A stretch of DNA of 64,000 nucleotides from contig NZ_JAFLNC010000001.1 in assembly GCF_017313765.1 (NCBI RefSeq), positions 62,001-126,000 on the forward strand, given 5' to 3'. Positions 1,398-20,067 of this stretch are shown piece after piece; position 1 is the stretch's first letter, and the number at the start of each line of letters is the position of its first letter. The notes under the pieces are model-generated. The model saw only the letters and a program-made list of their open reading frames with translations, ran no database searches and was not told where the DNA came from. Position numbers and translations under genes: made by a program. The DNA comes from Sneathiella sedimenti (GTDB taxonomy: Bacteria > Pseudomonadota > Alphaproteobacteria > Sneathiellales > Sneathiellaceae).

Positions 1398-2336
1398 ATG
1401 ACATCACCCCATTCTCATGATGAGAGCGACGGCGCGGCACACAGTCATTCCCACGACCATGCGCCAACGGTAACAGAAGATAGCGAGCGCCGCATCTTCT
1501 GGGTCATGTGCATGACCGGCGGCTATATGATCTTGCAGGCATTGGGAGGATTACTCTCCGGCTCTCTCGCGCTACTCGCTGACTCCGGTCATATGCTGTC
1601 CGACACGGCCGCACTCGGTCTCGCCTGGTTTGCCTTTCGACTTGCATCCAAACCTGCGGACAGCAAGCGTTCCTATGGCTACCATCGATTTCAGATTCTG
1701 GCGGCGTTCACCAATGGCCTGACCCTATTTTTCATTGCCGGCTGGATCATTTTTGAGGCAATCGAACGCCTGATGCAGCCGGGCGAGGTGCTCGGGGGTA
1801 TGATGCTTGTCATCGCTTGTGGTGGACTGGTGATCAATATTGTCGGCTTTTACCTGCTCCATCGCGGTGATCGGCATAATGTGAATATGCAAGGAGCGCT
1901 TCTTCATATAATGGGGGATTTGCTGGGCTCAGTTGCCGCCATTGTCGCCGCAATCATCATTCTTATGACCGAATGGATGGCGGCAGACCCACTCCTTTCT
2001 ATATTGGTCGCGGTCATAATTCTTAAAAGTGCCTACTCCCTTATTCGTCGGTCCGGACATATCCTGCTGGAAGGTACGCCGGAAAATCTGGATATGGCTC
2101 TTATCCGGGAAAAGCTGATCGCCTACCTGCCCGAAATCATTGACGTCCATCATATGCACGCCTGGTCGCTAACGGTGGAGAAACCGATTGTGACCATGCA
2201 TGTCCAGGTCAAGTCCTCCGCCGATCTTGAAACAATGCTTCGTGCTATCAACGCCTTTTTGCTCTCTGAGTTTGAGATTGATCATGCAACCTTACAGCTT
2301 GAGCACAACAACTGCCCGACAGAAGAAATAATATAA
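1398..2336 (+). CDS. Cation diffusion facilitator (zinc-type efflux transporter)
   Basis: A 312-residue inner-membrane cation/proton antiporter of the CDF family (CzcD/ZitB-like). The N-terminus is rich in His (HSHD, HSHSHDH), as in zinc exporters. About six membrane segments cover residues 33-220 and a cytoplasmic domain follows. The transport site is visible as His65/Asp69 in TM2 (ADSGHMLSD) and His170/Asp174 in TM5 (LLHIMGD). This His-Asp/His-Asp set is known for zinc and cadmium carriers, while DD-HD is the YiiP type. No metal-responsive regulator is adjacent. Export of excess zinc is the likely role, and the exact metal is inferred. Confidence 0.92.
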   Translation: MTSPHSHDESDGAAHSHSHDHAPTVTEDSERRIFWVMCMTGGYMILQALGGLLSGSLALLADSGHMLSDTAALGLAWFAFRLASKPADSKRSYGYHRFQILAAFTNGLTLFFIAGWIIFEAIERLMQPGEVLGGMMLVIACGGLVINIVGFYLLHRGDRHNVNMQGALLHIMGDLLGSVAAIVAAIIILMTEWMAADPLLSILVAVIILKSAYSLIRRSGHILLEGTPENLDMALIREKLIAYLPEIIDVHHMHAWSLTVEKPIVTMHVQVKSSADLETMLRAINAFLLSEFEIDHATLQLEHNNCPTEEII

Positions 2337-2346
2337 AGAACAGGAC

Positions 2347-2754
2347 TTATTGCCAAAGGGGGCGCGCGGCGCTCGCTGCTCCTTTTGCTGCTCCCCAGGG
2401 GCCAATGCTGATCATGGAAAGCCAGCGCATGGGAGGCGGGCTTTCCTGGCGGAGTTCAACCACCCCTCCCCTGGATATCCGTCCTATCAGCCGGAGATTC
2501 AGGCTCGATTTTTCAAAACTGCACCGAATTGCTTCGGCCGGAAGCCAGTATTTCGCTGGGGTTTTGCCCTGAACGCGATACCGCTTTTCCAGCTTTCCGG
2601 CGGTCAGTATGCGACAGTCACCGGCAAAGGCCGCACCGGGATCTCCGGTGATTTCCAACTCGATTAAATTCTGTTTTACGGCTGAGGCCGGCAGACCCGA
2701 AAATTGCGCCAGTGCCAACAATCCCAAGACCCAAATTATATGTCCCGTTCGCAT
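2347..2754 (-). CDS. Small secreted protein of unknown function
   Basis: A 135-residue protein with a clear signal peptide (MRTGHIIWVLGLLALA..., probable cleavage after PASA at about 25). The mature part contains two Cys residues that could pair (GDCRILTAG and AIRCSFEK) around a short basic, beta-rich stretch, and ends in a Pro/Trp/Ala-rich tail. I do not recognise the family. It is favoured over an opposing 105-residue frame because of the signal peptide and the Cys spacing. Its stop is 11 bp from the convergent CDF gene, and its start has only a weak ribosome site (GAG). Confidence 0.6.
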   Translation of the reverse strand: MRTGHIIWVLGLLALAQFSGLPASAVKQNLIELEITGDPGAAFAGDCRILTAGKLEKRYRVQGKTPAKYWLPAEAIRCSFEKSSLNLRLIGRISRGGVVELRQESPPPMRWLSMISIGPWGAAKGAASAARPLWQ

Positions 2755-2782
2755 TTACTCAGCATATGAGAACATGGTTAAC

Positions 2783-2819
2783 AAATAAAAAACCCGATTG
2801 CATCAAATACAACCGGGTT
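2783..2819 (-). terminator. Terminator after the cold-shock/DUF3126 operon
   Basis: On the minus strand AACCCGGTTG pairs with CAATCGGGTT around a 9-base loop and is followed by a T-rich tract (TTTTTATTTGTT). It lies 26 bp after the DUF3126 stop codon and ahead of the next minus-strand gene. Confidence 0.8.
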
Positions 2820-2844
2820 CAAACGCGTCAGATCATCACGCTTT

Positions 2845-3063
2845 TCAGGAGGTCGGCGGCAGATCCATATCAAGAATGGTCATGTGAAAGGCAAATGATA
2901 CTTCGCCTTCATCCTCGTCCCGATAGACTACCCCGATGAATTCATCGCCCAGCATGACTTCCGCGGTTCCATCAGATGGCCGTCGCTCTTTGACAACGAA
3001 ATCTTCATTGCCAAATTTTTCCCGCAGGTAACGCTGCACCCGCAATGTTTCCGTTCTTGTCAT
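2845..3063 (-). CDS. DUF3126 family protein
   Basis: A 72-residue protein matching the small alphaproteobacterial DUF3126 family: an N-terminal helix (RVQRYLREKFGN), then a beta-rich core with the characteristic EVMLGDEFIGVVYRDEDEGE and a final ILDMDLP. The family has no established function. The ATG at 3063 was chosen because the longer frame to 3132 runs into the upstream gene, while this start has a GC-rich purine site and leaves a 16 bp gap. It is therefore the second gene of an operon with the cold-shock protein, which suggests a link to RNA or growth control. That link is inference only. Confidence 0.8.
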   Translation of the reverse strand: MTRTETLRVQRYLREKFGNEDFVVKERRPSDGTAEVMLGDEFIGVVYRDEDEGEVSFAFHMTILDMDLPPTS

Positions 3064-3079
3064 TTTCGCCCCGCGCTCC

Positions 3080-3562
3080 TTATAGAATTTCCAGTGAGTC
3101 GGCGATCGGCCCTTTGACGCCCATACGGACAACGCATTTCACCTTTGTATCCAACGCGATATCCTCGGGGTTAATGTCGGAACGCTCCAGCATGTTGACA
3201 TGGATAAAAACATCCTCGCCACCGCCGTCCGGCGTTACGAATCCATACTTATGTTCGGGTACGTATGTGGTCACGACACCGGTCACCTCGATGTCTGCGC
3301 CAACAGCAACCTCTTCTTCCTCTTCCGGCTCATGAATCGCCACCACCTGCTGGCCACGATCGCCATCGGCGAGGTCACAATTGATCTGCATCCCTTCCCG
3401 CAGTTCGGTATAGGACGTATTCTGGAGGACAGAAATATGGACAAAGGCATCCGGTGACCCATCGGCGGGCGAGACGAAACCAAATCCTTTGGCTTCGTCG
3501 AAAAATTTCACAGTCGCCGATATATTCTTACGGACGGGTTTGGACGGCTTACGATCATTCAT
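3080..3562 (-). CDS. Two-domain cold-shock protein
   Basis: A 160-residue nucleic-acid chaperone with two cold-shock domains, an arrangement common in Alphaproteobacteria. Domain 1 (about 14-80) has the RNP1 motif KGFGFV and the RNP2-like AFVHISVL. Domain 2 (about 91-160) has KYGFVTPDG and DVFIHVNML. An acidic Glu-rich linker (EPEEEEEV, about 78-85) joins them. These domains bind single-stranded RNA or DNA and melt secondary structure during translation and transcription. It is the first gene of a pair with the DUF3126 gene. The 145 bp upstream region is AT-rich and may act as a 5' leader, but I cannot show a cold-shock structure in it. Confidence 0.92.
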   Translation of the reverse strand: MNDRKPSKPVRKNISATVKFFDEAKGFGFVSPADGSPDAFVHISVLQNTSYTELREGMQINCDLADGDRGQQVVAIHEPEEEEEVAVGADIEVTGVVTTYVPEHKYGFVTPDGGGEDVFIHVNMLERSDINPEDIALDTKVKCVVRMGVKGPIADSLEIL

Positions 3563-3707
3563 CCTTAAAGGACCTCATTATTTATAACAGACAGTGCAAT
3601 ACCCAATTTAGGGGCAAAGCTCAAATATTTCCGTGATTTTGTATCAGATCATAGAGCGGCTGTCTGCAATGATATTTGCGCGACCCCGCCATATGCCTTT
3701 CAGATAT

Positions 3708-4469
3708 TCAGATTCTGCGGAATTTTGCAGCACATCGGGAAATGCTGTGCTGAATCAACTTGACGATCTCTGGGCGCGTTCCAACAGCTCCTGCATAATG
3801 GGCCGGCAGCTTGCTTCCGGTCATTTTGCGCCATTTTGCAATCGCGCCCGGAACATCCTCTGTTGCATGTGGTCCCTCGGCGGCAAACAAGCCCACGAGC
3901 ACAAGCGGGCTTCCATCCTCAGGTTGATCATACAGCCATTTATCGAGGAACGGCGCTTCATTCAAGAATGCGACAGAGACCTTGCCAAATTCTTTCCTGC
4001 TTTCGACTGTCTTCTGCTGAAGGTACGTTGCTTCTGCCGATGCCCTTGATTTCTCCGACCCATGGGCGACGAGCACAAGATGGATGTCAGCAGGTGCATA
4101 ACCTTGCTCAGCGCAAACATCCCGCGCCATGGAAGAGATTATTCCGGCCAGCTCCGGATCGATTCCAAGCGCATCACACTGGTATAGCTGGCGATCAGCA
4201 CAAATCCGAAGTCCTTCGTTCAATCCAAACAGGTCTGGAACTCGCCGGGTGACGAAATATCCGTTGCTCATGAAAAAAGGCAGCAGAAATACCTCTCCTT
4301 TTGGTAGATTAGGCGTCACATGATCCCGTACAAGAAAGCAAACGTCGACATGGCCATAACGATTACTTTGCTGTAATGTCAATGCATGCTGCATGGCGGC
4401 CTCCTGCGCTCCATCGGAAACACTGGAGCCATGGGCAATTATCATTACTGAGGGGCGCGTAGGTAGCAT
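3708..4469 (-). CDS. Two-domain CbiX/SirB-like protein (sirohydrochlorin chelatase family)
   Basis: A 253-residue soluble protein built of two class II chelatase-like (CbiX) repeats. Each begins with the family signature containing the metal-site His: VMIIAHGSS (His13) and LVLVAHGSEKS (His136). The N-terminal half also has FLLPFFMSNGYF, matching the LPFFMSxGxH-type strand, although the second His is replaced by Tyr-Phe. CbiX/SirB proteins insert cobalt or iron into sirohydrochlorin. This gene stands alone, with no siroheme or cobalamin genes in the window, so the substrate is uncertain. It could be a ferrochelatase for siroheme or a family member of other function. Confidence 0.75.
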   Translation of the reverse strand: MLPTRPSVMIIAHGSSVSDGAQEAAMQHALTLQQSNRYGHVDVCFLVRDHVTPNLPKGEVFLLPFFMSNGYFVTRRVPDLFGLNEGLRICADRQLYQCDALGIDPELAGIISSMARDVCAEQGYAPADIHLVLVAHGSEKSRASAEATYLQQKTVESRKEFGKVSVAFLNEAPFLDKWLYDQPEDGSPLVLVGLFAAEGPHATEDVPGAIAKWRKMTGSKLPAHYAGAVGTRPEIVKLIQHSISRCAAKFRRI

Positions 4470-4721
4470 AGAAAAAACTTGTTAAAAATTATGAGTAGTA
4501 TTGTCAAAATTTGGTGATGGCGCTGTATTTACTTTTTTTCGGCCAAAACGAGATAAAATATCACTTTTCTTGCACTTTACCTGCTAAGCCAACCTAGGTA
4601 TTTACATTTTTGTAATCCCTGAGTATTGAAGTATGTGATAATGTTATTTCTTGAAAGTGGCAAAAAAATAAAGCTAAGGCCACGACTTATTTAAATGGTT
4701 CCAATCGGGAGGAAGATAAAA

Positions 4722-5768
4722 ATGATCAAACGTACAGTTATGTCGATTGCTGCGATTTCCGCGGCGTCGATGATGGCGTTCAGCGTTTCCGCAGCTGATG
4801 TTGTGGACGGGCCGAACGTCAACTGGAATTTATCCATATGGGGCAAAGAAAGAGCGTTTACATCTAGTGTCGAAGCTATCAGAGATTATGTTGATGAACG
4901 CACTGGCGGAAAATTCAAAATCAAGATTCATTACGGTGAAGCGCTGTCCAAGGCCAAAGAGAATCTCGACGGCATTAAGCTTGGTGCTTTCCAGATGGCC
5001 GCACTTTGCTCCGCCTACCATCCGGCAAAACATCCGACTCTTTCAGGGCTGGACCTGCCGTTTCTTCCTTTCCCGAATTTGAAAGTTCAAACCGCAGTGC
5101 ATGAAGCGTATTACGCCGATCCAGCGGTTAAGAAGGATCTTGCTCGGTGGGATGCAATGACTCTCATGAGCTCATTGTTGCCTCAGTATGAATTTACAGG
5201 TGTCGGTGAACCGCCGCTTACGATGGAAGACTGGAACGGCATGCGCGTTCGTGCTCTTGGCGGAATTGGTGAAGCCATGAAGAAAATTGGCGCGGTTCCA
5301 ACAACGGTGCCTGCACCTGAAGTCTACACGTCATTGGAACGCGGAACAATTGAAGCTGCGTCCTTCCCCTTCACCTATGCGCATGTGGCCTACCGTCTGA
5401 CTGACATAGGCGAATGGTATACGGCGAACATGTCTCCAGGCGCGAACAACTGCCCGGTTGTTGTCAACATCCCGGCGTATGAAAAGCTCCCGCCTGAATA
5501 TCAGAAGCTCCTGGAAGAGGCGAAGCCTTCTGCCTATGAAGCTCTTTACGCAGCATATGACGCGGCTGATAAGAAAAACTTCCCGCTTATGAAAGAAAAG
5601 GGAATGCAGCCGATCACGTACTCTGATGAAGAGATTGCAAGGTTCCGTGAAGTTGGCGCCAAGCCGGTTTGGGATGAATGGATCGCGAAAATGAATGCCG
5701 ATGGGTATCCTGGCGACCATCTTTTTGAATTGATCATGACGACTTCAAAAGAAGCCGCCAGCAATTAA
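4722..5768 (+). CDS. dctP: TRAP transporter solute-binding protein (DctP family)
   Basis: A 348-residue periplasmic receptor for a TRAP carboxylate importer. The signal peptide (about 1-24) ends at VSA/AD. The core shows the DctP fold with the ligand-carboxylate Arg region (WNGMRVRALGG) and the conserved segment GTIEAASFPFTYA. The ATG at 4722 was chosen because GGGAGGAAG lies 5-12 bp upstream and the signal peptide then starts with Met-Ile-Lys-Arg. A longer frame from 4695 is unlikely. It heads the cluster P-Q-M with acyl-CoA enzymes downstream, so the ligand is probably an organic acid degraded as a CoA ester. The 252 bp upstream is AT-rich and probably holds the operon promoter. No regulator gene is adjacent. 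Confidence 0.92.
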   Translation: MIKRTVMSIAAISAASMMAFSVSAADVVDGPNVNWNLSIWGKERAFTSSVEAIRDYVDERTGGKFKIKIHYGEALSKAKENLDGIKLGAFQMAALCSAYHPAKHPTLSGLDLPFLPFPNLKVQTAVHEAYYADPAVKKDLARWDAMTLMSSLLPQYEFTGVGEPPLTMEDWNGMRVRALGGIGEAMKKIGAVPTTVPAPEVYTSLERGTIEAASFPFTYAHVAYRLTDIGEWYTANMSPGANNCPVVVNIPAYEKLPPEYQKLLEEAKPSAYEALYAAYDAADKKNFPLMKEKGMQPITYSDEEIARFREVGAKPVWDEWIAKMNADGYPGDHLFELIMTTSKEAASN

Positions 5769-5781
5769 ACCTTTGAATAGG

Positions 5782-5810
5782 GGGCCTGGCGTACGCGCCA
5801 GGCCCTCTTT
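5782..5810 (+). terminator. Hairpin between dctP and dctQ (partial terminator/mRNA stabiliser)
   Basis: A perfect 10 bp stem, GGGCCTGGCG (5782-5791) and CGCCAGGCCC (5796-5805), with a TACG loop, is followed by a short T-run (TCTTT). It lies 14 bp after the binding-protein stop codon. In transport operons such hairpins usually allow more binding protein than permease to be made. The weak T-tract fits partial read-through. Confidence 0.75.
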
Positions 5811-5828
5811 CAGTATTAAGAAAAAATC

Positions 5829-6497
5829 ATGACATCAACCAATCCCCCAAAGGGTTCGGCATCCGGGTCAGCATTTGCAGCCTTTGACCGCGGATATTCC
5901 AAACTCGAAAATTTTCTGAACGGAATTTCCGCGCTCGCGATCTTTTTCGTGATGCTTCTTGGCGTTAGCCAGGTTTTGAGCCGAAAATTGCTCAACTTTC
6001 CGATTCTCGGCTATATCGATTTTATCGAACAGAGCATGGTGATATTCGCGTTTTTCGGAATAGCGTATTGCCAGCGTCAAGGTGGCCATGTCCGAATGGA
6101 TTTGTTCATGGCCAAGTTCAGTGCCCGCCCGCTCTATTTCTTTGAAGCGCTGGCAACACTGGTGGGTCTGGTTGTCGTAACTATTCTAATTGACACAAGC
6201 TGGCTCCATTTTCTTCGCGCCTATCAACTCGGCGATTCGACGATTGATATCGGGCTGCCAATTTGGCCAGCCAAGCTCGTCATTCCGCTGGCGTTCGGGG
6301 TCCTCTGGATCCGCTTCGCCTTACAGCTCGTCGGATTTTTACGTCTGTTTTTATATCCGAACGCAGAAATTATCGCCGTCCCTGTCATTGAAGATGTCAC
6401 GGCGATCGCACGTCACGAAATTGAAGATGCCCTCGGTGAAGAGGCGGCCAAACAAGCAAAGTTTGACGAAACATATATTAAAAAGGGGAAAAAATAA
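5829..6497 (+). CDS. dctQ: TRAP transporter small permease (DctQ family)
   Basis: A 222-residue inner-membrane protein, the four-helix small subunit of a TRAP transporter. Hydrophobic segments lie near 35-57, 70-90, 112-135 and 150-175. A typical Q-subunit segment, GIAYCQRQGGHVRMDL, follows the second. The C-terminal 40 residues are charged and cytoplasmic. The stop codon overlaps the dctM start (TAATG), showing translational coupling. In this family Q and M pair to form the sodium-coupled carrier fed by the P protein. Confidence 0.9.
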   Translation: MTSTNPPKGSASGSAFAAFDRGYSKLENFLNGISALAIFFVMLLGVSQVLSRKLLNFPILGYIDFIEQSMVIFAFFGIAYCQRQGGHVRMDLFMAKFSARPLYFFEALATLVGLVVVTILIDTSWLHFLRAYQLGDSTIDIGLPIWPAKLVIPLAFGVLWIRFALQLVGFLRLFLYPNAEIIAVPVIEDVTAIARHEIEDALGEEAAKQAKFDETYIKKGKK

Positions 6498-7804
6498 TGG
6501 GAGTCGATCCTCTTTTGGCCGGTCTTATCGGTATGGGCGCCCTTATTGTCATGGTGTTTCTGGGTGTACGAGTCTATATCGCGGCAACCCTTGTCGGCAT
6601 GCTTGGCATTGTCTCAATTATCGGATGGGACGCCGGTACCGGTATCGTCGGAACCATTCCCCATTCAAAATCAACGCTCTATTCCTTGAGCGTATTGCCA
6701 ATGTTCATTTTGATTGGCTTTCTCGCGTTTCATGCGGGAATCACGACATCCGCCTTTGATGCGGCGAAGAAATGGATAGGATGGGTCCCGGGTGGCCTTG
6801 CAGTAGCGACGGTATTTTCGGCGGCCGGATTCGCCGCGGTTTCAGGCGCAAGTACCGCCACAGCGGCAGTGTTTAGCCGTGTGGCCATCCCCGAAATGCT
6901 GGCCAATGGGTATGACAAGCGGCTTGCCGCAGGTGTTGTCGCCGCGGGCGGCACACTCGCATCCCTGATCCCGCCCAGCGCCATCCTCGTAATTTATGCG
7001 ATTATCGTTGAAGAATCTGTGGGCGCACTGCTGCTCGCAGGTTTTATCCCCGGCATTGTTTCCGCGCTTATATATGCGCTGATCATTATGGGGCGGGCAA
7101 CCGTCAACCCTAAACTGGGCCCTCCCGTTCGTGGCTTTACGATGGGCGACAGAATGAAATCTCTGCCGGGTACGTTTCCCATTATCGCGGTCATCGGGAT
7201 TATTTTCAGCGCTATTTACGGTGGCTGGGCAACACCAACAGAAGCCGGCGCACTTGGAGCTTTCGTCGTTCTTATCCTCGCCTTCATTCATGGCATGCGT
7301 ACGAAAGAACTGAAGGACGCGCTGTTCGAAACCGCCAAGCTCACTGTGATGATTTTTTCGATCATCTGGGGTGTGCTGGTATTTGTCCGGTTTCTCGGAT
7401 TTTCGGGCCTTCCCGAAGCATTCGCGGAGTGGATCCTCGGCTTGCCCCTGCCACCAACGGCGATCATCATTCTAATTCTGTGCGGATATGCTATTCTCGG
7501 TATGTTCATGGACGCCATCGGAATGTTGCTTCTTACGCTTCCAGTTGTATTTCCGGCGGTTATCGCGCTTGGCTATGACCCGATCTGGTTCGGTATTATT
7601 GTTGTGAAAATGGTAGAAATCTGCCTGATCACCCCGCCGATCGGACTCAATTGCTATGTCGTTAATGGTGTCCGGCCGGATATACCACTCTCGGACGTTT
7701 TCCGGGGAATTGGTCCTTTCTTTGTTGCCGATGTGTTAACTGTAGCCCTGTTCATTGCCTTTCCATGGCTTATTACTTGGCTGCCGCAAACCATGTTAAA
7801 CTAA
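6497..7804 (+). CDS. dctM: TRAP transporter large permease (DctM family)
   Basis: A 435-residue membrane protein with about 12 helices, the transport subunit of the TRAP system. Diagnostic segments include GASTATAAVFSRVAIPEM, GGTLASLIPPSAILVIYA, GGWATPTEAGALGA and EICLITPPIGLNCYVV, which form the two hairpin substrate/Na+ sites in this family. The length is normal. The start ATG at 6497 overlaps the dctQ stop. The next gene begins 56 bp downstream on the same strand, so transport and CoA metabolism genes are probably co-transcribed. Confidence 0.93.
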   Translation: MGVDPLLAGLIGMGALIVMVFLGVRVYIAATLVGMLGIVSIIGWDAGTGIVGTIPHSKSTLYSLSVLPMFILIGFLAFHAGITTSAFDAAKKWIGWVPGGLAVATVFSAAGFAAVSGASTATAAVFSRVAIPEMLANGYDKRLAAGVVAAGGTLASLIPPSAILVIYAIIVEESVGALLLAGFIPGIVSALIYALIIMGRATVNPKLGPPVRGFTMGDRMKSLPGTFPIIAVIGIIFSAIYGGWATPTEAGALGAFVVLILAFIHGMRTKELKDALFETAKLTVMIFSIIWGVLVFVRFLGFSGLPEAFAEWILGLPLPPTAIIILILCGYAILGMFMDAIGMLLLTLPVVFPAVIALGYDPIWFGIIVVKMVEICLITPPIGLNCYVVNGVRPDIPLSDVFRGIGPFFVADVLTVALFIAFPWLITWLPQTMLN

Positions 7805-7860
7805 CCAACACCATATTTTCCGGCTTCCTGCCAAAATCAAAAATAAAAAGGAGTAGGCAA

Positions 7861-9027
7861 ATGGATTTTACGCTCACTGAAGAGCAGCATGCCATTGTAG
7901 AGAATGTCGAAGCGCTGTGCGCGCGCTTCGACGATAACTATTGGAGAGAAAAAGATCGGACTGGAGACTTCCCGTTTGATTTTCACGCAGCGATGGCGGA
8001 GGCCGGGTGGCTCGGCATTACCATGCCAGAGGAATTCGGCGGCGCGGGACTAGGCGTTGTAGAAGCAGCGCTGATGATGCATACAGTGGCTAAGTCCTCC
8101 GGCGGCATGTCTGCGGCGTCAGCCATTCACATCAATATTTTTGGCCCCCACCCGATCGTTGTATTCGGGAATGACGAGCAAAAGAACCGGTGGCTTCCCC
8201 AACTTATCAAGGGCGAAGTTAAAACCTGTTTCGGGGTGACCGAGCCAAACGCCGGCCTGAACACAACGGCCCTTGAAACGCGAGCCGAAAAAACATCCGA
8301 CGGCTATGTTGTAAATGGCCGGAAGATATGGACCACAACGGGGCAGGAAGCAGACAAAATCATGCTCCTGGTTCGCACCACGCCAAAGGAAAACTGCAAG
8401 AAGGCGACCGATGGTCTGTCCCTCTTCTACACGGACATGAACCGTGACTACATGGATGTTCGCGTTATTGATAAAATGGGCCGCAAGGCTGTTGATTCAA
8501 ACGAAGTGTTTATCGACAACCTGCCGGTTCCCGAAGAAGACCTGATCGGCGAAGAAGGCAAGGGCTTTTACTACCTCCTGCACAGCCTGAACCCCGAACG
8601 CGTCCTCGTCGGCATGGAAGCAATCGGTATCGGCATGAATGCCCTCGGCCGCGCCGCGAAATATGCCCGGGAAAGAGAAGTCTTTGGTCGGCCAATCGGC
8701 AAGAACCAGTCTATTCAGCATCCACTCGCTGAAAACTGGATGGAGCTGGAGGCCGCCTATCTGATGGCTATGAAAGCAGCTTCAAACTACGACGCCGGGC
8801 TTGAAGCCGGGGTTTATGCCAACGCCGCCAAATATCTCGGTGGTGAAGCAGGATTCAAGGCATGTACACAAGCGGTTATGACCCATGGTGGCATGGGCTA
8901 TGCCAAGGAATTCACTGTTGAACGATTGATGCGAGAGGTCATGATCTGTCGAATCGCGCCTGTCAGCCCGCAGTTGGTGCTGTGTTATGTTGCCGAAAAG
9001 GCGCTTGGGTTGCCGAAGTCCTACTAA
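7861..9027 (+). CDS. Acyl-CoA dehydrogenase
   Basis: A 388-residue FAD-dependent acyl-CoA dehydrogenase that introduces an alpha-beta double bond and passes electrons to ETF. The N-terminal helical domain starts MDFTLTEEQHAIVENV. The FAD-binding signature CFGVTEPNAGLNTT is followed by WTTTGQEADKIMLL. The C-terminal domain has RALGRAAKYARERxxFGRPIG-type sequence and THGGMGYAKEFTVERLMRE. The ATG at 7861 has AAGGAGTAGG just upstream, and the frame extending to 7765 is inside dctM and rejected. It lies between the TRAP genes and two CoA-activating enzymes. The substrate is probably the CoA ester of the imported acid, chain length unknown. Confidence 0.93.
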   Translation: MDFTLTEEQHAIVENVEALCARFDDNYWREKDRTGDFPFDFHAAMAEAGWLGITMPEEFGGAGLGVVEAALMMHTVAKSSGGMSAASAIHINIFGPHPIVVFGNDEQKNRWLPQLIKGEVKTCFGVTEPNAGLNTTALETRAEKTSDGYVVNGRKIWTTTGQEADKIMLLVRTTPKENCKKATDGLSLFYTDMNRDYMDVRVIDKMGRKAVDSNEVFIDNLPVPEEDLIGEEGKGFYYLLHSLNPERVLVGMEAIGIGMNALGRAAKYAREREVFGRPIGKNQSIQHPLAENWMELEAAYLMAMKAASNYDAGLEAGVYANAAKYLGGEAGFKACTQAVMTHGGMGYAKEFTVERLMREVMICRIAPVSPQLVLCYVAEKALGLPKSY

Positions 9028-9058
9028 TAATAAAAATACTACCGGATACAGGTGACAA

Positions 9059-10267
9059 ATGAGTAAACCGAATCACGGGCCTCTTACGGGCGTAAGAGTC
9101 GCTGATCTTACGTCTGTCCTGCTCGGCCCATATGCCGCCCAAATCCTGGGCGATATGGGCGCAGACGTCATTAAAATCGAAGGACCAGAAGGCGATACAA
9201 CCCGTGATCTCGGTCCACGCCGTTCTCCCGGGATGGCGGCGGTTTATCTGAATGCCAACCGCAACAAACGGGCGCTTGGTATCGATTTGAAGTCAGAGGA
9301 AGGCCGCGCAGCCTTCCTCAAGCTCCTGGAAACTGTTGATGTCTTCCTCCACAATATGCGGCCAACCGCGATTAAGCGGTTACGCCTTACCTATGAAGAT
9401 GTAAAAGCCGTTAATCCAAACATCATCTATTGCGGCGCGTACGGGTTCGGACAGGACGGCCCATATGCGAATAAACCGGCTTATGATGATATGATTCAAG
9501 GGGTAAGCGGTCTTGCCGCAACGCAATCAACCTTGATGGGCCGACCAGGATATATGCCGACCGTGATTGCCGACAAAGCAACAGCACTGACGGCGGTATA
9601 TTCGATGACCATGGCATTGTATCATCGCGAACGGACAGGCGAAGGACAGGAAGTCAAGATTCCGATGTTCGAGACGATGGTGCAGTTTCACATGCTGGAA
9701 CATCTATATGGCGGGAATTTCGACCCCCCAATAGGGTCCGTTGGCTATCCACGGGCTATTTCCCCTAACCGCCATCCTTACAAGACAAAAGACGGTATGA
9801 TTGGCGTACTTCCCTATGTCGACAAGCATTGGCGAGCATTCTTTGACATGGCTGGCCAACCTGAGTTGATGCAAGACCCGCGTTTTTGCAATATTGAAGC
9901 GCGGCTCGATAATATCGACGCACTTTATGAAGTCCTTGGTGACATCATCAAAACGCGAACATCCGCTGAATGGCTTGCCGATCTGGATGCAGCCAGTATT
10001 CCCGCAGTGCCGATCAACAGCCCCGAGGACCTTCTCGAGGACGAACATCTCAAATCAGTGAATTTCTGGAAAACGATGGATCATCCGTCCGAAGGTAAAC
10101 TCGTATATCCGGGAATCCATACAGAGTTTTCTGCGTCTCCCGGGGACGTACGTCGTCACGCTCCACGACATGGAGAACATAACCGGGAAATCCTGCAGGA
10201 AATCGGCATCTCTGACGCGGAAATTGACAGTCTCACTTCCTCGGGTATTCTTTGTTCCAAGACATGA
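9059..10267 (+). CDS. CaiB/BaiF family III CoA-transferase
   Basis: A 402-residue cytoplasmic enzyme that moves CoA from an acyl-CoA donor to a carboxylic acid. The family start (GVRVADLTSVLLGPYAAQIL), the GADVIKIE segment and the motif PAYDDMIQGVSG are present. Asp143 in that motif is the position of the acyl-anhydride-forming Asp of formyl-CoA transferase. The length is normal. It lies 31 bp after the dehydrogenase with AGGTGA before the ATG, and 36 bp before an acyl-CoA ligase. Two different CoA-activating enzymes in one cluster suggest one initiates the pathway and the other recycles CoA or accepts a second acid. That division is inference. Confidence 0.92.
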   Translation: MSKPNHGPLTGVRVADLTSVLLGPYAAQILGDMGADVIKIEGPEGDTTRDLGPRRSPGMAAVYLNANRNKRALGIDLKSEEGRAAFLKLLETVDVFLHNMRPTAIKRLRLTYEDVKAVNPNIIYCGAYGFGQDGPYANKPAYDDMIQGVSGLAATQSTLMGRPGYMPTVIADKATALTAVYSMTMALYHRERTGEGQEVKIPMFETMVQFHMLEHLYGGNFDPPIGSVGYPRAISPNRHPYKTKDGMIGVLPYVDKHWRAFFDMAGQPELMQDPRFCNIEARLDNIDALYEVLGDIIKTRTSAEWLADLDAASIPAVPINSPEDLLEDEHLKSVNFWKTMDHPSEGKLVYPGIHTEFSASPGDVRRHAPRHGEHNREILQEIGISDAEIDSLTSSGILCSKT

Positions 10268-10303
10268 TGTTCGGCCCATAATAAGCAGAAAAAGAAACAG
10301 GCT

Positions 10304-11845
10304 ATGCATATACGAGAATTTGCGAAAAAAACACCGGAAAAGCCGGCTATCATTATGGCTGGCAGCGGTAAAACAATTACGTATAAACAGCTTAACGATC
10401 GTTCAAATCAAGGCGCCCGATATTTTCGGGATATGGGACTGAAAGTCGGCGACCATATCGCCTTTCTTCTTGAAAATAATCCCAGATTCTATGAAATATG
10501 CTGGGCCGCGCAGCGCGCGGGTCTTTATTATACCGCCATCAGCAGCCGCCTTACAGCGGAAGAGGCAGCCTATATCATAAACGATTGTGGCGCTCGGATT
10601 TTCATCACCTCAAATTACAAATCAGAACTTGCCGGACAGTTGGTGGAACGAACGCCAAATGTTGAGGAACGGCTGATGATCGACGGCACGCTGCCCGGCT
10701 ATAAGTCTTTTGAAGACATTGTCGGCACCTATTCCTCGGACCCGCTCGCGGATGAATGCGAAGGGTCGGACATGCTTTATTCCTCAGGCACTACCGGACG
10801 TCCAAAAGGCATTAAGCCATTGGAGATCGGTAATCCGATCGGAACAGAGGACAACCTGTTTAACCTTTTAAAAACACAGTATAAGGTTACTGAGGATACA
10901 ATGTACCTCTCCCCGGCACCCCTCTATCACGCCGCCCCATTACGATACAACATGCGCACTCAACGCTTTGGCGCCACCTGCGTTATCATGGAGCATTTTG
11001 ATGCGGAGGAATATCTGCGCCTTGTTGAAAAGTACAAAATAACGCATTCGCAGCTCGTCCCGACCATGTTCGTTCGGATGTTGAAATTACCCGAAGAGGT
11101 GCGGAAAAAATACGACGTCAGCAGTCTGCAGGTCGCTATTCATGCTGCGGCCCCTTGCCCCGAGAAAGTAAAACATCAGATGATGGAATGGTGGGGACCC
11201 ATTTTGTATGAATATTACGCTGGCACGGAAGGAAACGGGTATTGCGCCGTTACGCCTGAAGAGTGGTTGACGCATCCAGGAACAGTTGGCCGGGCATTGA
11301 CCGGCATCGTCCATATCGTCGACGAGGATGGGGAAGAGCTTCCCGCCGGGAAAACCGGAGCAATTTACTTTTCTGACGGACGGGAGTTCACCTACCACAA
11401 TGATCCGGAACGGACGGCGGAGAGCTTCAACGACAAGGGATGGAGCACTCTGGGTGATGTCGGGTATCTGGATGACGATGGCTTTCTCTATCTAACCGAC
11501 CGCCAGACTTACATGATCATTTCCGGCGGCGTGAATATCTATCCGCAGGAAATCGAGGACATGCTCCTGACCCACCCGAAGGTTTATGACGCCGCCGTTA
11601 TCGGCGTACCAAATGAAGACTTCGGGGAAGAAGTTAAAGCCGTTATTCAGCCCGTTGATATGAACCTCGTCGGCGAGGATCTGGAAGCAGAGCTGATAGA
11701 GTTCTGCCGTGCGAATATCAGTCACATTAAATGCCCCCGGTCCGTTGACTTTGAGGCAGAGCTTCCCCGCCATCCGACGGGAAAACTCTACAAAAGACTT
11801 CTCAAAGACAAATACTGGGGCGATAAAAAATCCCGGATCGTTTAA
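10304..11845 (+). CDS. AMP-forming acyl-CoA synthetase
   Basis: A 513-residue member of the ANL superfamily that activates a carboxylic acid with ATP and CoA. The phosphate loop (YSSGTTGRPKGIK, about 160-172), the acyl-pocket region YYAGTEGNG, the hinge segment STLGDVGYLDDDGF and the C-terminal PTGKLYKRLL with the catalytic Lys are all present. Length and order are normal for a short or medium-chain or aromatic acid ligase. It is the last gene of the cluster that begins with dctP. Its stop codon is 2 bp from the stop codon of the convergent ribH gene, with no terminator in between. Confidence 0.93.
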   Translation: MHIREFAKKTPEKPAIIMAGSGKTITYKQLNDRSNQGARYFRDMGLKVGDHIAFLLENNPRFYEICWAAQRAGLYYTAISSRLTAEEAAYIINDCGARIFITSNYKSELAGQLVERTPNVEERLMIDGTLPGYKSFEDIVGTYSSDPLADECEGSDMLYSSGTTGRPKGIKPLEIGNPIGTEDNLFNLLKTQYKVTEDTMYLSPAPLYHAAPLRYNMRTQRFGATCVIMEHFDAEEYLRLVEKYKITHSQLVPTMFVRMLKLPEEVRKKYDVSSLQVAIHAAAPCPEKVKHQMMEWWGPILYEYYAGTEGNGYCAVTPEEWLTHPGTVGRALTGIVHIVDEDGEELPAGKTGAIYFSDGREFTYHNDPERTAESFNDKGWSTLGDVGYLDDDGFLYLTDRQTYMIISGGVNIYPQEIEDMLLTHPKVYDAAVIGVPNEDFGEEVKAVIQPVDMNLVGEDLEAELIEFCRANISHIKCPRSVDFEAELPRHPTGKLYKRLLKDKYWGDKKSRIV

Positions 11846-11847
11846 CC

Positions 11848-12360
11848 CTATGACGCGAGCTTAAGTTCCTTGAGCCCGCGCATATTTTTGAGCGTCTGAT
11901 GACAGGCTTTCGCAGCTTCCTGCCCTTTCACTACGAAATGCTCCTTGAAGAATCCCATATGAGCCTGGGTTTCCTGAAAATGATGCGGTGTCAGAACAAC
12001 TGATAAAATCGGGACACCGCGATCAAGCTGTACGCGCATCATTGCATCGAGAACGGTCCGGGCAACGAAGTCATGGCGATAGATGCCCCCATCAACGATC
12101 AGACCCGTTGCCATGATCAGGTCATAGCGCCCGGTTTCAGCGAGCTTCTGTGCCATCAAAGGAATTTCGAGGCTGCCCGGCACATCGTGGATATCAAAGC
12201 AATCCGCGTCATATCCGTACCTGACCAGTTCCTCCATGAAGGACTTGCTGGCTTCATGGACAATATCTGCATGCCAGTTCGCCTGGATGATAGCGATACG
12301 GTTATGACTTTTGTGAATGCTGGGGGTTTTATTGTCAGATGTCGTGTTTTTGATTTTCAT
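11848..12360 (-). CDS. ribH: 6,7-dimethyl-8-ribityllumazine synthase, type II (RibH2-like)
   Basis: A 170-residue enzyme that condenses 5-amino-6-ribitylaminouracil with dihydroxybutanone phosphate in riboflavin synthesis. It matches the decameric RibH2 form of Brucella and Mesorhizobium: Trp29 in QANWHADIV stacks on the substrate, and it has the family segments DVPGSLEIPLMAQKLA, IVDGGIYRHDFVA and VVLTPHHFQE. A 20-residue polar N-terminal extension precedes the fold. The ATG at 12360 was chosen because the longer frame to 12411 lacks homology and AAGG lies 8 bp upstream. An FMN riboswitch precedes it, so flavin level controls it. No other rib gene is nearby. Confidence 0.93.
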   Translation of the reverse strand: MKIKNTTSDNKTPSIHKSHNRIAIIQANWHADIVHEASKSFMEELVRYGYDADCFDIHDVPGSLEIPLMAQKLAETGRYDLIMATGLIVDGGIYRHDFVARTVLDAMMRVQLDRGVPILSVVLTPHHFQETQAHMGFFKEHFVVKGQEAAKACHQTLKNMRGLKELKLAS

Positions 12361-12454
12361 TTTTGGGCCTTGTTTATTCAAGTTGACAAAAACCCAAGGC
12401 AAATAGGTCAAAGGCTAGCTCAGGCCTAATTCAGCCTTCCTTACCCTTTATCCT

Positions 12455-12592
12455 GTTCTCTTCCATCCGGACTATCACCGTCGGCTTCGGATTTACACCG
12501 AATCTGCTGACCCCGCCGAAGCGGGCGCTCGCGGGCTTGAACAAAATTCTGTTCTTTACCGCCGGTAGGGACTTGCACCCTGCCCTGAGAAC
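12455..12592 (-). promoter_or_regulatory. FMN riboswitch (RFN element) controlling ribH
   Basis: On the minus strand the sequence shows the conserved RFN blocks in order: GTTCTCAGGGCAGGGTG, then AGTCCCTACCGGCGGT, a variable arm with CCCGCGAGCGC, then GGTCAGCAGATTCGGTG, AATCCGAAGCCGACGGT and ATAGTCCGGATGGAAGAGAAC. The GTTCTC and GAGAAC ends form helix P1. It ends about 95 nt before the ribH start. No strong terminator hairpin with a T-run is visible between the aptamer and the gene, so control at translation initiation is more likely than attenuation. Confidence 0.95.
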
Positions 12593-12648
12593 ATTCCCTC
12601 AATATGGGGAGGGAATATCACCCCCTATATTAGGGATGTTTTCCCGAT

Positions 12649-13062
12649 TTGCAAGACGCTGGATATGTATTACGTTGGCGCTCGATATTCACCCTGCTGA
12701 GCCTCGAGGACCTGTTGACCGAACAAGCATTCACGGCATTATTGAAAGATGCTATTCGCTATAACCAGCTGGAACGTTACTTCAAGGTCAGCAGTGGCTC
12801 GATTGAAGAGATCGCTAGCCACTACGATCTCGCACCGGATATCGACGCGATAAAGCGCGACCTGTCGGATAGCGGCGGTCTCAAGCTATCCCATGCGCAA
12901 CGACGGATGTTGATGACACTTGTTGCCCTGTTTGACGGGTACACGGCCGATGACCTGTTTGAAGAAGGTCTTGGCAGCCTGTCTCGGATTATACAGTCAA
13001 TGGATCGGAATAACCGGGAACTTATGGCGGACCTGATCCTTTCCTATCCTGGCTGGGGCTGA
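12649..13062 (+). CDS. Hypothetical protein
   Basis: A frame of 137 codons with an acidic, helical product containing repeated aliphatic heptads (EIASHYDLAPDIDAIKRDL, RRMLMTLVALFDG, LGSLSRIIQSMDRN) and no signal peptide or membrane segment. I do not recognise the family. The only upstream start is a TTG at 12649, and the first in-frame ATG (MLMTLVALF) is well inside. The N-terminus is therefore uncertain, and a start among the CTG/TTG codons near 12706-12718 is possible. It is divergent from the riboswitch-controlled ribH, so the two would share the short region near 12600-12650. dgt follows on the same strand after about 97 bp. Confidence 0.5.
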   Translation: MQDAGYVLRWRSIFTLLSLEDLLTEQAFTALLKDAIRYNQLERYFKVSSGSIEEIASHYDLAPDIDAIKRDLSDSGGLKLSHAQRRMLMTLVALFDGYTADDLFEEGLGSLSRIIQSMDRNNRELMADLILSYPGWG

Positions 13063-13159
13063 ACATTTTGAGAGAAGCGAACGGCATTGATAATTGAATT
13101 TATGCCCAGCCCGACAAATATTCATTCTATAGTAAGTAGTTATGAGGTAGTTTACCCCG

Positions 13160-14494
13160 ATGATGGACTGGAATAAGCTTCTCTCGACCCGGCGCTACGG
13201 ACAGGATCGCCATGATCCCGTTATCGCCGCGCGTAGCCCGTTCCACAAGGACCAGGATCGCATCGTTTTTTCCTCGGCCTTTCGGCGCCTGCAGGACAAG
13301 ACCCAGGTTCATACACTGGCGGAAAGCGATTATGTGCGGACTCGCCTCACCCATTCCATGGAAGTGGCGTCCGTTGGCCGCTCACTTGGCGCAAATGCCG
13401 GACAGGTCATTATCGACCGCCATTTGAAAGGCAGTGAGTACAGCCCCGCGGATTTCGGCCATATCGTATCCGCCGCCTGTCTTGCCCATGACATCGGCAA
13501 CCCGCCATTTGGGCATTTTGGCGAAGAGATTATCCGCCATTGGTTCAAAAAAGGACACGGCGCAGCGGAACGGGTGGAAGGCCTAACCGATGCCGAGGCA
13601 CGGGACCTTGAAATGTTTGAAGGGAATGCGCAGGGATTTCGCATTTTGACGAAGCTGCAGAACTGGCGAAACTCCGGAGGATTGCGGCTGACCTACGCCA
13701 CGCTCGGCACGTTCATGAAATATCCAAGGACATCCATCGTTACGGCACCGATGCCGGGTGATAGTGGCGGTAAAAAATTCGGTGTTATGCAGTCTGAATT
13801 GGAAGCCTTCCGGGAAATCGCCGAGGAGATCGGCCTTTTGCAGCGTGGGAATGAGGCCTACTGGTGTCGTCACCCTCTCGCCTATCTCGTTGAGGCTGCG
13901 GATGATATCTGCTACAGCGTTGTCGATATTGAGGACGGGTTTAAACTCGGTCGCCTTGCCTACGGGGAGACCGAGGATTTGATGATCCGCATTCTTGGCG
14001 GCTTGCCGAAACGCTATGCGGAAGTCGATGACCCCTCAGAACGGATTTCCTACCTTCGCGCAAAATGCATTGGACAGCTCATCGGCGAGGTCTCGGATAT
14101 CTTCAAGGAATGTGAAGGAGAAATACTCGCCGGTACCTTTAAGGGCGACCTACTGCATCACTCGCGTCATGCAAAACTCTTCGACGAAATATATGCGCTT
14201 TGCCAGCGTGAAATCTACCGTCACCCGGAACGGATCCAGGCGGAATTGAGTGGATCGGAAATCTTAACGACGTTGCTGGATGCTTTTTATGACGCAAACC
14301 TTGACTGGGAAAAGTTCATTCGCGATGGCACAGAAATGAACCCCCGGTCTTCCGTTCTGATGACCCTTTTTCCTGATGGCAACGAGCATCCCCGCAAACG
14401 TTATGATTGGCTTCTCGGAATTACCGATTTTGTTTCTGGCATGACTGATTCTTTCGCGGTACGCCAATTTCGCGATATCAGGGGCATTGTTTAA
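13160..14494 (+). CDS. dgt: Deoxyguanosinetriphosphate triphosphohydrolase-like protein
   Basis: A 444-residue HD-domain enzyme that splits dNTPs into nucleoside and triphosphate. The start (RRYGQDRHDP), the AFRRLQDKTQVH block and the HD metal residues are clear: His65 in RTRLTHSMEVA, His110-Asp111 in CLAHDIGNPPFGHFGE, plus Asp in EAADDICYSVVDIEDGF. The family keeps dNTP pools in balance and may limit foreign DNA. Two ATGs (13160 and 13163) are possible. The first is used here. The gene is not obviously in an operon: 97 bp precede it and 91 bp follow. Confidence 0.93.
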   Translation: MMDWNKLLSTRRYGQDRHDPVIAARSPFHKDQDRIVFSSAFRRLQDKTQVHTLAESDYVRTRLTHSMEVASVGRSLGANAGQVIIDRHLKGSEYSPADFGHIVSAACLAHDIGNPPFGHFGEEIIRHWFKKGHGAAERVEGLTDAEARDLEMFEGNAQGFRILTKLQNWRNSGGLRLTYATLGTFMKYPRTSIVTAPMPGDSGGKKFGVMQSELEAFREIAEEIGLLQRGNEAYWCRHPLAYLVEAADDICYSVVDIEDGFKLGRLAYGETEDLMIRILGGLPKRYAEVDDPSERISYLRAKCIGQLIGEVSDIFKECEGEILAGTFKGDLLHHSRHAKLFDEIYALCQREIYRHPERIQAELSGSEILTTLLDAFYDANLDWEKFIRDGTEMNPRSSVLMTLFPDGNEHPRKRYDWLLGITDFVSGMTDSFAVRQFRDIRGIV

Positions 14495-14541
14495 CTCAAT
14501 TTTCATCGGGTTTCCGCATATGGTAACCCCCTATTAACGTG

Positions 14542-14554
14542 ATTCTAATAGAAT
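14542..14554. promoter_or_regulatory. Perfect inverted repeat upstream of the DUF2336 gene
   Basis: ATTCTA-A-TAGAAT is a perfect 6+1+6 palindrome 32 bp before the DUF2336 start codon, in an AT-rich gap. It could be an operator. No cognate regulator is known to me and no second copy was noted in the window. Confidence 0.35.
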
Positions 14555-14585
14555 TATTCTTTTAGATATCAGGTTAATAACGTCC

Positions 14586-15698
14586 ATGTTGGTTGATTCC
14601 ACCTTATATGGCGACCGGATCGCCGCGATGTTTGCCAAAATGCCGGCACCGTTGCGCGTGAATACTGCACGCAAGGCAGCAGAGGGGTTTGTCGCGCAGC
14701 AATTGGCAAATGACGATCTGGAACTGACCGAAGCCATCATCAGCTATTTTGTCAATGATATCGATACGGCTGTGCGCCAAACCATCGCGGAAACTGTCAA
14801 GGAATGCGAGTTCCTGTCTCATGAAATTGCCATGAAGCTAGCGCTGGACGTGGATGAAATATCCTTGCCCATCGTCACCTGTTCACCAATCCTTTCCGAT
14901 GAGGATTTATGGACGATTCTGCAAAGCGCCAGCAACCGCATTCAAACTGCCATTGCTGAGCGACCACATCTTGGCGTTAAATCCTCCGCCTGCATCGCCG
15001 AAAGCGGTTGCTATTCTGCGATCAAGGCCTGCCTGAGAAATGAAACCGCCATTATCGGCAAGGCTGCCTATGACCACATTCTTGGACGTTTTGGCGACAT
15101 CGATCCTATTCAGGAACTCATGGTCCACCGCCCTTTCCTTCCCGAAGAGATCGTTTCGCGGCTGTTTGATTTCATTTCTGAGGAATATAAACAGATCCTC
15201 ATTGAGAGAAACCCTGTATCTGAAACGACGTCTGTCCATAAAATTCTCAATGCTCGTGAAAAGGCGCTCGCCAAGAACCTTGACCGGAGAATGACCGATC
15301 ACGAGCAGAAAAAGAAAGCAATCGCCCTGGATCGCGAAGGTCGCCTGACAGCGACGCTGATGCTTCGCCTGTTGATTGCAGGCAATCATTCCTTCTTTGC
15401 TGCCGCTCTTGGCCATGCATCCGGCATTTCTAAGAAGCGTGTCATATCGCTCACGTCCGGTCGGGGGTTTCTCGGCTTCCAGCGCCTGTATGAGCGGGCC
15501 CAGCTACCTTCATATCTATACAGCGCCTTGCGAACGGCCATGGAGGAGCAACGCAAGGCCACCCATTATCATCCACGTGCCGATCTAGATAATTTCCGCC
15601 AACGCCTAATTGACCGGATCGCAGAAACATACGGATGGGAAGATGATATGTCTCTTGAAGAATTGATGGAAAAACTACTTCCCAAACGCCTCCATTGA
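14586..15698 (+). CDS. DUF2336 domain-containing protein
   Basis: A 370-residue soluble protein of a family found mainly in Alphaproteobacteria, with no established role. It is nearly all helical and reads as degenerate HEAT-like repeats: LANDDLELTEAIISYFVND, LDVDEISLPIVTCSPILSD and HRPFLPEEIVSRLFDFIS. Each contains the recurring pattern of a helix ending in a bulky residue, then a Pro or Asp turn and a second helix. The C-terminal region (RLTATLMLRLLIAGNHSFF, GISKKRVISLTSGRGFLGF) is typical for the family. No signal peptide. Such repeats usually make protein contacts, so a scaffold or regulator role is inferred. Confidence 0.8.
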   Translation: MLVDSTLYGDRIAAMFAKMPAPLRVNTARKAAEGFVAQQLANDDLELTEAIISYFVNDIDTAVRQTIAETVKECEFLSHEIAMKLALDVDEISLPIVTCSPILSDEDLWTILQSASNRIQTAIAERPHLGVKSSACIAESGCYSAIKACLRNETAIIGKAAYDHILGRFGDIDPIQELMVHRPFLPEEIVSRLFDFISEEYKQILIERNPVSETTSVHKILNAREKALAKNLDRRMTDHEQKKKAIALDREGRLTATLMLRLLIAGNHSFFAAALGHASGISKKRVISLTSGRGFLGFQRLYERAQLPSYLYSALRTAMEEQRKATHYHPRADLDNFRQRLIDRIAETYGWEDDMSLEELMEKLLPKRLH

Positions 15699-15743
15699 CC
15701 TTTACACTCTAGGCAATTCAAAATAACAAAACGGAATGGCCCA

Positions 15744-16340: not shown

Positions 16341-16361
16341 TCTGAATTAAGGAGACGGGGA

Positions 16362-19906: not shown

Positions 19907-20021
19907 ATTGAAACACTCCCGGAGTTTTGTTTCCCCTACCCTAAGCAGGGCATTTATTTACACAAGATGAATTTTCTCTGGCGGAAATTCACGTATTCCT
20001 GATTGTCACGGCGATGTTTAT

Positions 20022-20037: not shown

Positions 20038-20067
20038 ACTACGGCGAATCATGAAAGGGGCTGTGTT

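Follow-up and report, generated by a model that had tools for sequence, protein, structure and literature searches.

The question raised by positions 4722-11845 of the 64,000-nucleotide stretch analysed here (the window), from the genome of the marine bacterium Sneathiella sedimenti, is which organic acid is served by a compact set of uptake, activation and oxidation genes, and how its product would be degraded further. Six genes encode the three subunits of a TRAP transporter, an acyl-CoA dehydrogenase (ACAD) and two enzymes able to form CoA esters, namely a class III CoA-transferase (CoAT) and an AMP-forming acyl-CoA ligase; the initial annotation took the set for a single route that imports an acid, activates it in two possible ways and makes an enoyl-CoA. 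Our analysis identifies the set as a real functional block that is related to the itaconate/methylsuccinate route but is not that route; since the genome has its own mcd-type (methylsuccinyl-C4-CoA dehydrogenase) gene and a relative of ict, the CoA-transferase gene of that route, the acid is probably other than methylsuccinate, and perhaps 3-branched.

A six-gene block and its distribution

The block genes were identified from open reading frames (ORFs) and Pfam, with all domain scores above the gathering scores:

4722-5768, plus strand: dctP, DctP-type TRAP substrate-binding protein, 348 aa (Pfam DctP, 115 bits)
5829-6497, plus strand: dctQ, small TRAP membrane subunit (Pfam DctQ, 82 bits)
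6497-7804, plus strand: dctM, large TRAP membrane subunit (Pfam DctM, 245 bits)
7861-9027, plus strand: ACAD, assigned to a putative sister subfamily of the mcd-type ACADs (Pfam N-terminal, middle and C-terminal ACAD domains)
9059-10267, plus strand: class III (CaiB/BaiF-type) CoAT (Pfam CoA_transf_3, 378 bits)
10304-11845, plus strand: AMP-forming acyl-CoA ligase, FadD4-like (Pfam AMP-binding, 229.5 bits; AMP-binding_C, 60.9 bits)

These genes lie head to tail with gaps of 60, -1 (an overlap), 56, 31 and 36 bp, as the initial annotation had described (no gap above 60 bp), and the presence of DctP, DctQ and DctM domains within one gene group identifies a TRAP transporter. The dctP start proposed at 4722 was likewise correct, this being an ATG with a GGAGG-like sequence upstream and, judged by eye, a signal-peptide-like N-terminus; it is preferred to the mechanical call at 4695, which gives a longer ORF, just as an ACAD start at 7861, preceded by GGAG, is preferred to the mechanical ORF call at 7765. 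No regulator had been noted, and among the Pfam-scanned genes at 112-17300 we found no transcription regulator barring a cold-shock protein at 3080-3562 (ORFs 2350-2754 and 12649-13062 gave no Pfam match); the nearest helix-turn-helix protein met lies at 20014-20616. A consensus promoter scan of 4400-12700 returned 6 sites against a shuffle mean of 8.2, i.e. no excess, with no site within 250 bp before dctP.

Conservation was followed through a genus set of 24 genomes, the window's own and 23 others; by ligase, the nearest named genomes are Sneathiella, at 87-90% identity. The block occupies one syntenic place with the same gene order in 22 of the 24, on one strand and with gaps below 200 bp except for one (taken from tblastn ends), a conservation that is more than chance. 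A ligase orthologue (at least 68% identity) is found in 21 of the 24, and in the 22nd genome with the block (G016) dctPQM, ACAD and a partial CoAT run to the contig end. The block was not found in G002 (91% complete) or G006 (66% complete), whose best ACADs are 58% and 61% identical, respectively, and the sister genus (G024) carries dctPQM-ACAD at 48-77% identity with no CoAT or ligase behind.

Variation within the genus concerns mainly the CoAT and the transporter. The CoAT lies between ACAD and ligase in 17 of the 22 genomes with the block (in one it is cut by the contig end) and is absent from five (G004, G007, G010, G011 and G012), in which the best CoAT elsewhere is only 47-51% identical; the ligase is present in all 21 genomes whose contig extends to it. 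On a tree of 21 loci, representing 20 of the 22 genomes plus record L047 (G016 and G017 were excluded for their short contigs), six loci are without CoAT and the label changes four times, at least three of these changes being forced by starred branches. Because it was lost at least three times in the genus, the CoAT appears to be an extra, dispensable activation route, which fits the two ways of activation originally proposed. DctM is 90-97% identical across the Sneathiella loci that hold it, except in G004 (73%) and G011 (69%), whose loci (L231 and L223) combine TRAP genes of a more distant type with the usual ACAD and ligase; the TRAP genes there look like replacements in place. Behind dctM a second ACAD (about 30% identical to the first) occurs in G010, G011, G013, G021 and G022, and relatives of it (63-66%) share a stretch with CoAT, dctPQM and AtuA genes in two other families (L199, L202).

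Wherever the stretches extend to them, the block is flanked by the same two genes, the lumazine synthase gene following it in all 21 Sneathiella genomes with a long enough contig; one locus (L044, a contig of G021) has an additional ORF between the CbiX-like gene and dctP. The neighbouring features in the window are:

3708-4469, minus strand: CbiX-like gene
11848-12411, minus strand: lumazine synthase, RibH
12451-12596, minus strand: FMN riboswitch RF00050 (119 bits; searched only in the window)

The riboswitch precedes the lumazine synthase gene, and a flavin gene here adjoins a flavoenzyme gene.

Outside the genus the parts mostly occur apart. A ligase scan of 84,980 species genomes gave 264 relatives, of which the best 80 were kept; nine (L039-L047, labelled Sneathiella, Sneathiellales or Alphaproteobacteria/Proteobacteria) carry the block or a contig-limited part of it. 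Around the remaining 71 (60-67% identity; 7 of these stretches are shorter than 10 kb), ACAD matches do not exceed 34% and CoAT matches do not exceed 28%, and no match spanning 150 residues was seen for DctP or DctM. Close ACADs occur in 89 and close DctM proteins in 56 of 385 genomes of the class (E 1e-125), and among the matches listed G116 alone outside the genus has adjoining ACAD and DctM with a CoAT behind; its locus (L194), from another family, reads DctPQM, one other gene, ACAD (64%) and CoAT (45%). None of 20 stretches around TRAP relatives holds an ACAD above 31%, and two (L199, L202) hold a CoAT above 36%, at 51-55%; of 80 ACAD relatives, only 7 have a DctM of the window or paralogue type at a distance of up to 6 kb. 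Gene calls in G+C-rich loci were made by codon-position G+C, and the counts come from tblastn. Genes for M81/MlrC-type peptidases were also met: the window has one at 40553-42031, at a distance of 29 kb from the block, and similar genes occur near TRAP relatives (L194, 16657-18111; L213, 5100-6581, the latter by eye only).

The genome itself holds two paralogous cassettes on contig C2. One (L232) reads CoAT-ACAD (61%)-DctPQM; the other (L233, at about 176-195 kb) contains an enoyl-CoA hydratase, two CoATs, a CitE lyase, MaoC and a thiolase-like gene, together with an ACAD (58%), IclR, SDR, HTD2 and a divergent DctPQM. By-eye labels were used for several genes of L232-L234, and Pfam was applied to only some of these. 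For a complete pathway of the lyase type, L233 is a stronger candidate than the block in the window.

The conserved order that the initial annotation proposed to look for was thus present in 22 of 24 genomes within the genus and in none of the 71 ligase relatives that lie outside the block, and the separation of enzymes from transporter in homologues, which it had named as counting against a single route, is largely what is seen beyond Sneathiella. Because the parts are mostly apart there, the six-gene set is a genus-level assembly of an older TRAP/ACAD/CoAT association with a ligase. The same separation, and the other-type TRAP genes beside the usual ACAD and ligase in G011 and G004, would suit genes that are neighbours by inheritance only, with the transporter and the enzymes serving different purposes; we consider this unlikely given that TRAP, ACAD and CoAT recur together in L194 and in both paralogous cassettes, and that short gaps on one strand are kept throughout the genus. 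The original interpretation is accordingly supported in part, for one co-directional block kept through Sneathiella.

The dehydrogenase and its gene neighbourhood

The window ACAD is 40-45% identical to four mcd-type ACADs and 27-30% identical to five other ACADs, 'mcd-type' being assigned solely from membership of plasmid clusters with an ich/ict/ccl set (L325, also with MmgE/PrpD; L327; L323; L324, without a lyase). In a quick tree, a branch with SH-aLRT 99 separates the four mcd-type sequences and 88 rows of the window ACAD's family from the remaining sequences, and 19 positions are common to the family and the mcd-type sequences and found in none of the five other ACADs. ACAD matches in 299 genomes of the phylum (E 1e-70) fall into two bands, at 51-69% (besides the window's own) and 36-46% identity; at least 21 of the 68 places in the lower band lie within about 2.5 kb of an MmgE/PrpD match (by eye), and for the upper band no such match was seen nearby (by eye, among the matches listed). 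Taken together, the comparisons suggest that the window ACAD belongs to a sister subfamily of the mcd-type ACADs. It is not the mcd orthologue, the genome holding a separate mcd-type gene (C2:894238) that is 73% identical to a Sinorhizobium mcd-type gene.

The catalytic Glu of the window ACAD is Glu246, in an 'ER' site, with Pro367 at the canonical Glu place. A Glu at the position equivalent to Glu246 is of the isovaleryl-CoA/long-chain dehydrogenase (IVD/LCAD) type, which accepts branched substrates. For the five best solved ACADs, the Glu of the GEGT-like motif aligns to Pro367 where the alignment extends that far, and a residue other than Glu stands opposite Glu246. Both Glu246 and Pro367 are present in 88/88 family rows and 4/4 mcd-type rows; the five other ACADs compared all have the former, with Gly at 367.

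The gene neighbourhood of the subfamily was sampled in 80 stretches fetched from 100 non-Sneathiella ACAD places listed. Within 6 kb of these 80 ACADs (19 stretches having a flank shorter than 6 kb) we found CoAT in 29 cases, MaoC in 24, CitE in 20, MaoC and CitE together in 16, and any of the three in 40. The corresponding counts for 28 control ACADs were 4, 0 and 0 (Fisher p = 0.03 for CoAT, 0.0004 for MaoC and 0.0015 for CitE), the controls being further ACADs taken from loci that had been retrieved for a different purpose, partly TRAP-anchored, so that CoAT, DctM and AtuA are inflated there. The MaoC and CitE neighbours are scattered over many branches of the ACAD tree. AtuA-family genes appear in stretches of TRAP relatives (L199, L202, L211) and ACAD relatives (L198, L300); as a member of the module AtuA was rejected, lying near only 1 of 80 ACAD relatives against 5 of 28 controls.

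Nine named plasmid records with a family ACAD, chosen and not random, were opened. The CoAT directly adjoins the ACAD in five (Roseomonas L298, Roseibium L321, Pseudosulfitobacter L322, Cupriavidus L326 and Nitratireductor L328), MaoC and a CoA ester lyase lie near it in Azoarcus L301 and Methylobacterium L303, and a TAXI-type TRAP and AtuA lie behind it in Palleronia L300. In the Roseibium and Nitratireductor records an ABC transporter, an AMP-binding protein, CoAT and ACAD share a strand and follow a biotin-carboxylase set that is presumably of the kind used for 3-methyl-branched acids; in the Pseudosulfitobacter record CoAT, ACAD and a gene of the acetate-CoA-ligase family are consecutive, with a fused TRAP permease 7 kb away. 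Compared with the window, the ACADs of L298, L326, L322, L321, L328 and L300 are of the same subfamily (60-65% identity) and the CoAT directly adjoins the ACAD in all but L300, whereas the transporter or receptor is of TTT, TAXI/fused TRAP or ABC type, the CoATs are 52, 42, 26, 29 and 30% identical, and the AMP-binding proteins of L321 and L328 match the window ligase only partially (33-37%). The combination of transporter, CoAT, ACAD and ligase thus recurs, with transporters and ligases that are unrelated to those of the window or resemble them only in part.

Uptake, activation and known systems

The receptor, DctP, scores above the NCBIfam TRAP_S1 cut-off (78/50) and well below that of the C4-dicarboxylate receptor model TIGR00787 (65.4 bits against 175.05). 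Arg177, in this family presumably the carboxylate-binding arginine, is present in all 50 aligned DctP rows, the window's included. The nearest solved chains are 4nap/4pgn, at an E of only about 5e-20. The residues that contact the ligand in IctP include K41, K94, N209 and V234 beside the arginine (PMC12599236). A DctP structure model built from eight Sneathiella sequences (mean pLDDT 44.6, pTM 0.40) was too poor for a fold search.

Amongst the activating enzymes, the CoAT is only 27-31% identical to four ict-position proteins and is not an ict orthologue; the ict relative elsewhere in the genome (C2:840571) is 49% identical to the ict-position protein of L325, against 32% for the window CoAT. 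The nearest NCBIfam model to the ligase is FadD4 (672/850, below cut-off). In L234 and L320, from two Sneathiella genomes, a paralogue of the ligase (53-54% identical to that of the window) occurs close to an ABC transporter of Liv type (by eye and tblastn).

The order of transporter, ACAD, CoAT and ligase equals that of caiT-A-B-C in the caiTABCDE operon of Escherichia coli. This raises the possibility of a carnitine-like cycle, in which the ligase would prime the substrate with ATP, the CoAT would transfer CoA from the product to a fresh substrate molecule, and the ACAD might even work as a reductase. NCBIfam cai models do match all three enzymes, but at scores far below the cut-offs (CaiA 166.8/540, CaiB 162.5/413, CaiC 213.8/651), the transporter is a TRAP and not a BCCT carrier, the block has no hydratase gene and its CoAT seems dispensable; a system of this kind is quite unlikely here.

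Among characterised systems, the itaconate/methylsuccinate operon ich-mcd-ict-ccl with its IctPQM TRAP transporter comes closest (PMC9875883, PMC12290011, PMC12599236). There, methylsuccinate is loaded by Ict, oxidised by an ACAD to mesaconyl-C4-CoA and processed through citramalyl-CoA to acetyl-CoA and pyruvate (PMC12290011); Pseudomonas aeruginosa imports such acids by PA0884-0886, i.e. IctPQM (PMC9875883, PMC12599236). Class III CoAT and ACAD are grouped in the P. aeruginosa PA0878-PA0886 operon and a related Cupriavidus necator cluster for branched short-chain dicarboxylates, as they are here, and the P. aeruginosa operon and the window block share a TRAP importer; the ACADs, moreover, would belong to sister subfamilies, and the window has a homologue of Ich, 19 kb from the block. 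The CoA-transferase gene is also missing from some itaconate clusters, which in this resemble the five Sneathiella genomes without CoAT (PMC12290011). The block differs, on the other hand, in having no ich, ccl or mmgE and in its added ligase, as well as in the CoAT, receptor and separate mcd and ict relatives described above. A further system (PMC11659651) was set aside as a comparator, its CoA-transferase being of family I.

From this comparison it can be judged whether the cell uses the block to take up itaconate/methylsuccinate and start its breakdown. The known operon couples the same three functions of TRAP import, class III CoA transfer and ACAD oxidation (PMC9875883, PMC12290011, PMC12599236), and an Ich homologue is present in the window; set against these are the separate mcd and ict relatives in the genome, the low identity of the window CoAT to ict-position proteins and a receptor below the C4-dicarboxylate model, and on balance this assignment is very unlikely. 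The initial annotation did not recognise the set as a described pathway, and the exact six genes are indeed not named in the open-licence literature searched (titles and abstract openings). That statement needs amending in two respects, in that one relative of it has been characterised (PMC9875883, PMC12290011, PMC12599236) and named plasmid records group the same four functions with other transporters.

A candidate route for a 3-branched acid

The reading that we favour, tentatively and at somewhat short of an even chance, is that the block is a catabolic entry module for an acid, probably 3-branched, whose degradation is finished by a hydratase and a CitE-type lyase. The TRAP importer would take up the carboxylate, as expected from its family, and the ligase, together with the class III CoAT in most species, would form its CoA ester, the CoAT presumably saving ATP by reusing the CoA of another CoA ester; the ACAD would then produce the enoyl-CoA. 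Methylsuccinyl-C4-CoA is itself a 3-branched acyl-CoA, and because the ACAD is apparently sister to the mcd type and has a catalytic Glu of the isovaleryl-CoA-dehydrogenase type, C3 of the acid most likely carries a branch or substituent. Hydration of such an enoyl-CoA would give a tertiary 3-hydroxyacyl-CoA; since a tertiary alcohol cannot be oxidised, a lyase would have to replace the thiolase, and a CitE-type enzyme would cut the product with neither a 3-hydroxyacyl dehydrogenase nor a thiolase required. The same logic would account for the MaoC and CitE genes found near members of the ACAD subfamily, although for Sneathiella we infer this.

For the hydration step the window offers one candidate:

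30613-31443, plus strand: HTD2-like (FAS1_DH_region) protein, itaconyl-CoA hydratase homologue, outside the block (PDB 8khg match)

The initial annotation noted that hydratase and thiolase steps were missing and suggested that the HTD2-like gene, or SDR and SCOT genes in the window, would supply them. The first part of this suggestion is strengthened by a match of the HTD2-like protein to PDB 8khg, 'Itaconyl-CoA hydratase' (E 1e-71), by 51% identity to its counterpart at the ich position of L325, and by matches in all 24 genus genomes (partial in G017 and G009, in the latter with a stop). The gene is nonetheless unlinked to the block, with window neighbours that look unrelated by eye, and was rejected as a block member. 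The SDR and SCOT genes, some 38-40 kb away, are poorer candidates than a MaoC hydratase and a CitE lyase, the companions of the ACAD subfamily, and these two may replace the 'missing' hydratase and thiolase. A CitE relative is present in 22 of the 24 genus genomes; the MaoC and CitE genes on contig C2, or the Ich-like gene at 30613 for the hydration, could serve.

Several observations weigh against this route. Those on the ACAD are that Glu246, being shared by all five other ACADs compared, is not distinctive for mcd, that the family's own branch reaches only SH-aLRT 91 in the quick tree, and that long branches meet there at the split between mcd-type and other ACADs, for which the program gave a warning. 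As regards gene context, half of the family ACADs (40/80) have none of CoAT, MaoC and CitE within 6 kb, the control is small and its loci, like those of the family, are not independent, the HTD2-like hydratase type lies within 6 kb of 0/80 ACAD relatives, and in Paraburkholderia L299 the family ACAD is surrounded by ETF and transhydrogenase genes and the 19 kb of the record carry no annotated CoAT or lyase, which counts against the lyase reading. Co-transcription of the block is a prediction, and its ACAD and CoAT, with mcd and ict genes elsewhere in the genome, are not those orthologues. Finally, neither MaoC nor CitE lies within the block, the receptor falls outside the C4-dicarboxylate group, and a FadD-like ligase fits a hydrophobic monocarboxylate better than a dicarboxylate.

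These last three points would equally favour an ordinary entry into beta-oxidation, in which a straight-chain or aromatic-side-chain monocarboxylate is activated by the FadD4-like ligase, oxidised by the ACAD and finished by general enzymes, the MaoC/CitE link being irrelevant in Sneathiella; the 32 ACAD N-domain matches in the genome indeed suggest a broad beta-oxidation capacity. This explanation is doubtful, if far from fanciful, as the ACAD is nearest to the mcd-type subfamily and a CitE lyase lies near 20 of 80 of its relatives compared with 0 of 28 controls. A 3-branched monocarboxylate would reconcile the parts of the block.

A broader proposal, rather doubtful at present, takes the ACAD subfamily as the marker of a 'lyase-type' oxidation of 3-branched carboxylates that would be widespread in the Alphaproteobacteria and as yet uncharacterised, with the Sneathiella block as its dedicated uptake and activation arm for another acid. 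If true, a transporter, a CoAT (or ligase), an ACAD, MaoC and CitE would cut the chain without a carboxylase, a 3-hydroxyacyl dehydrogenase or a thiolase, and the breakdown of methylsuccinate would be a relative, already characterised, that follows the same logic. Many of the records examined have a transporter, a CaiB-type CoAT and an ACAD in one cluster, and for these the placement of the ACAD beside methylsuccinate dehydrogenase, together with the MaoC/CitE link, would provide a rule for the thiolase-free cleavage of 3-branched acids, whilst the Sneathiella block would yield a short list of candidate acids for a single receptor protein.

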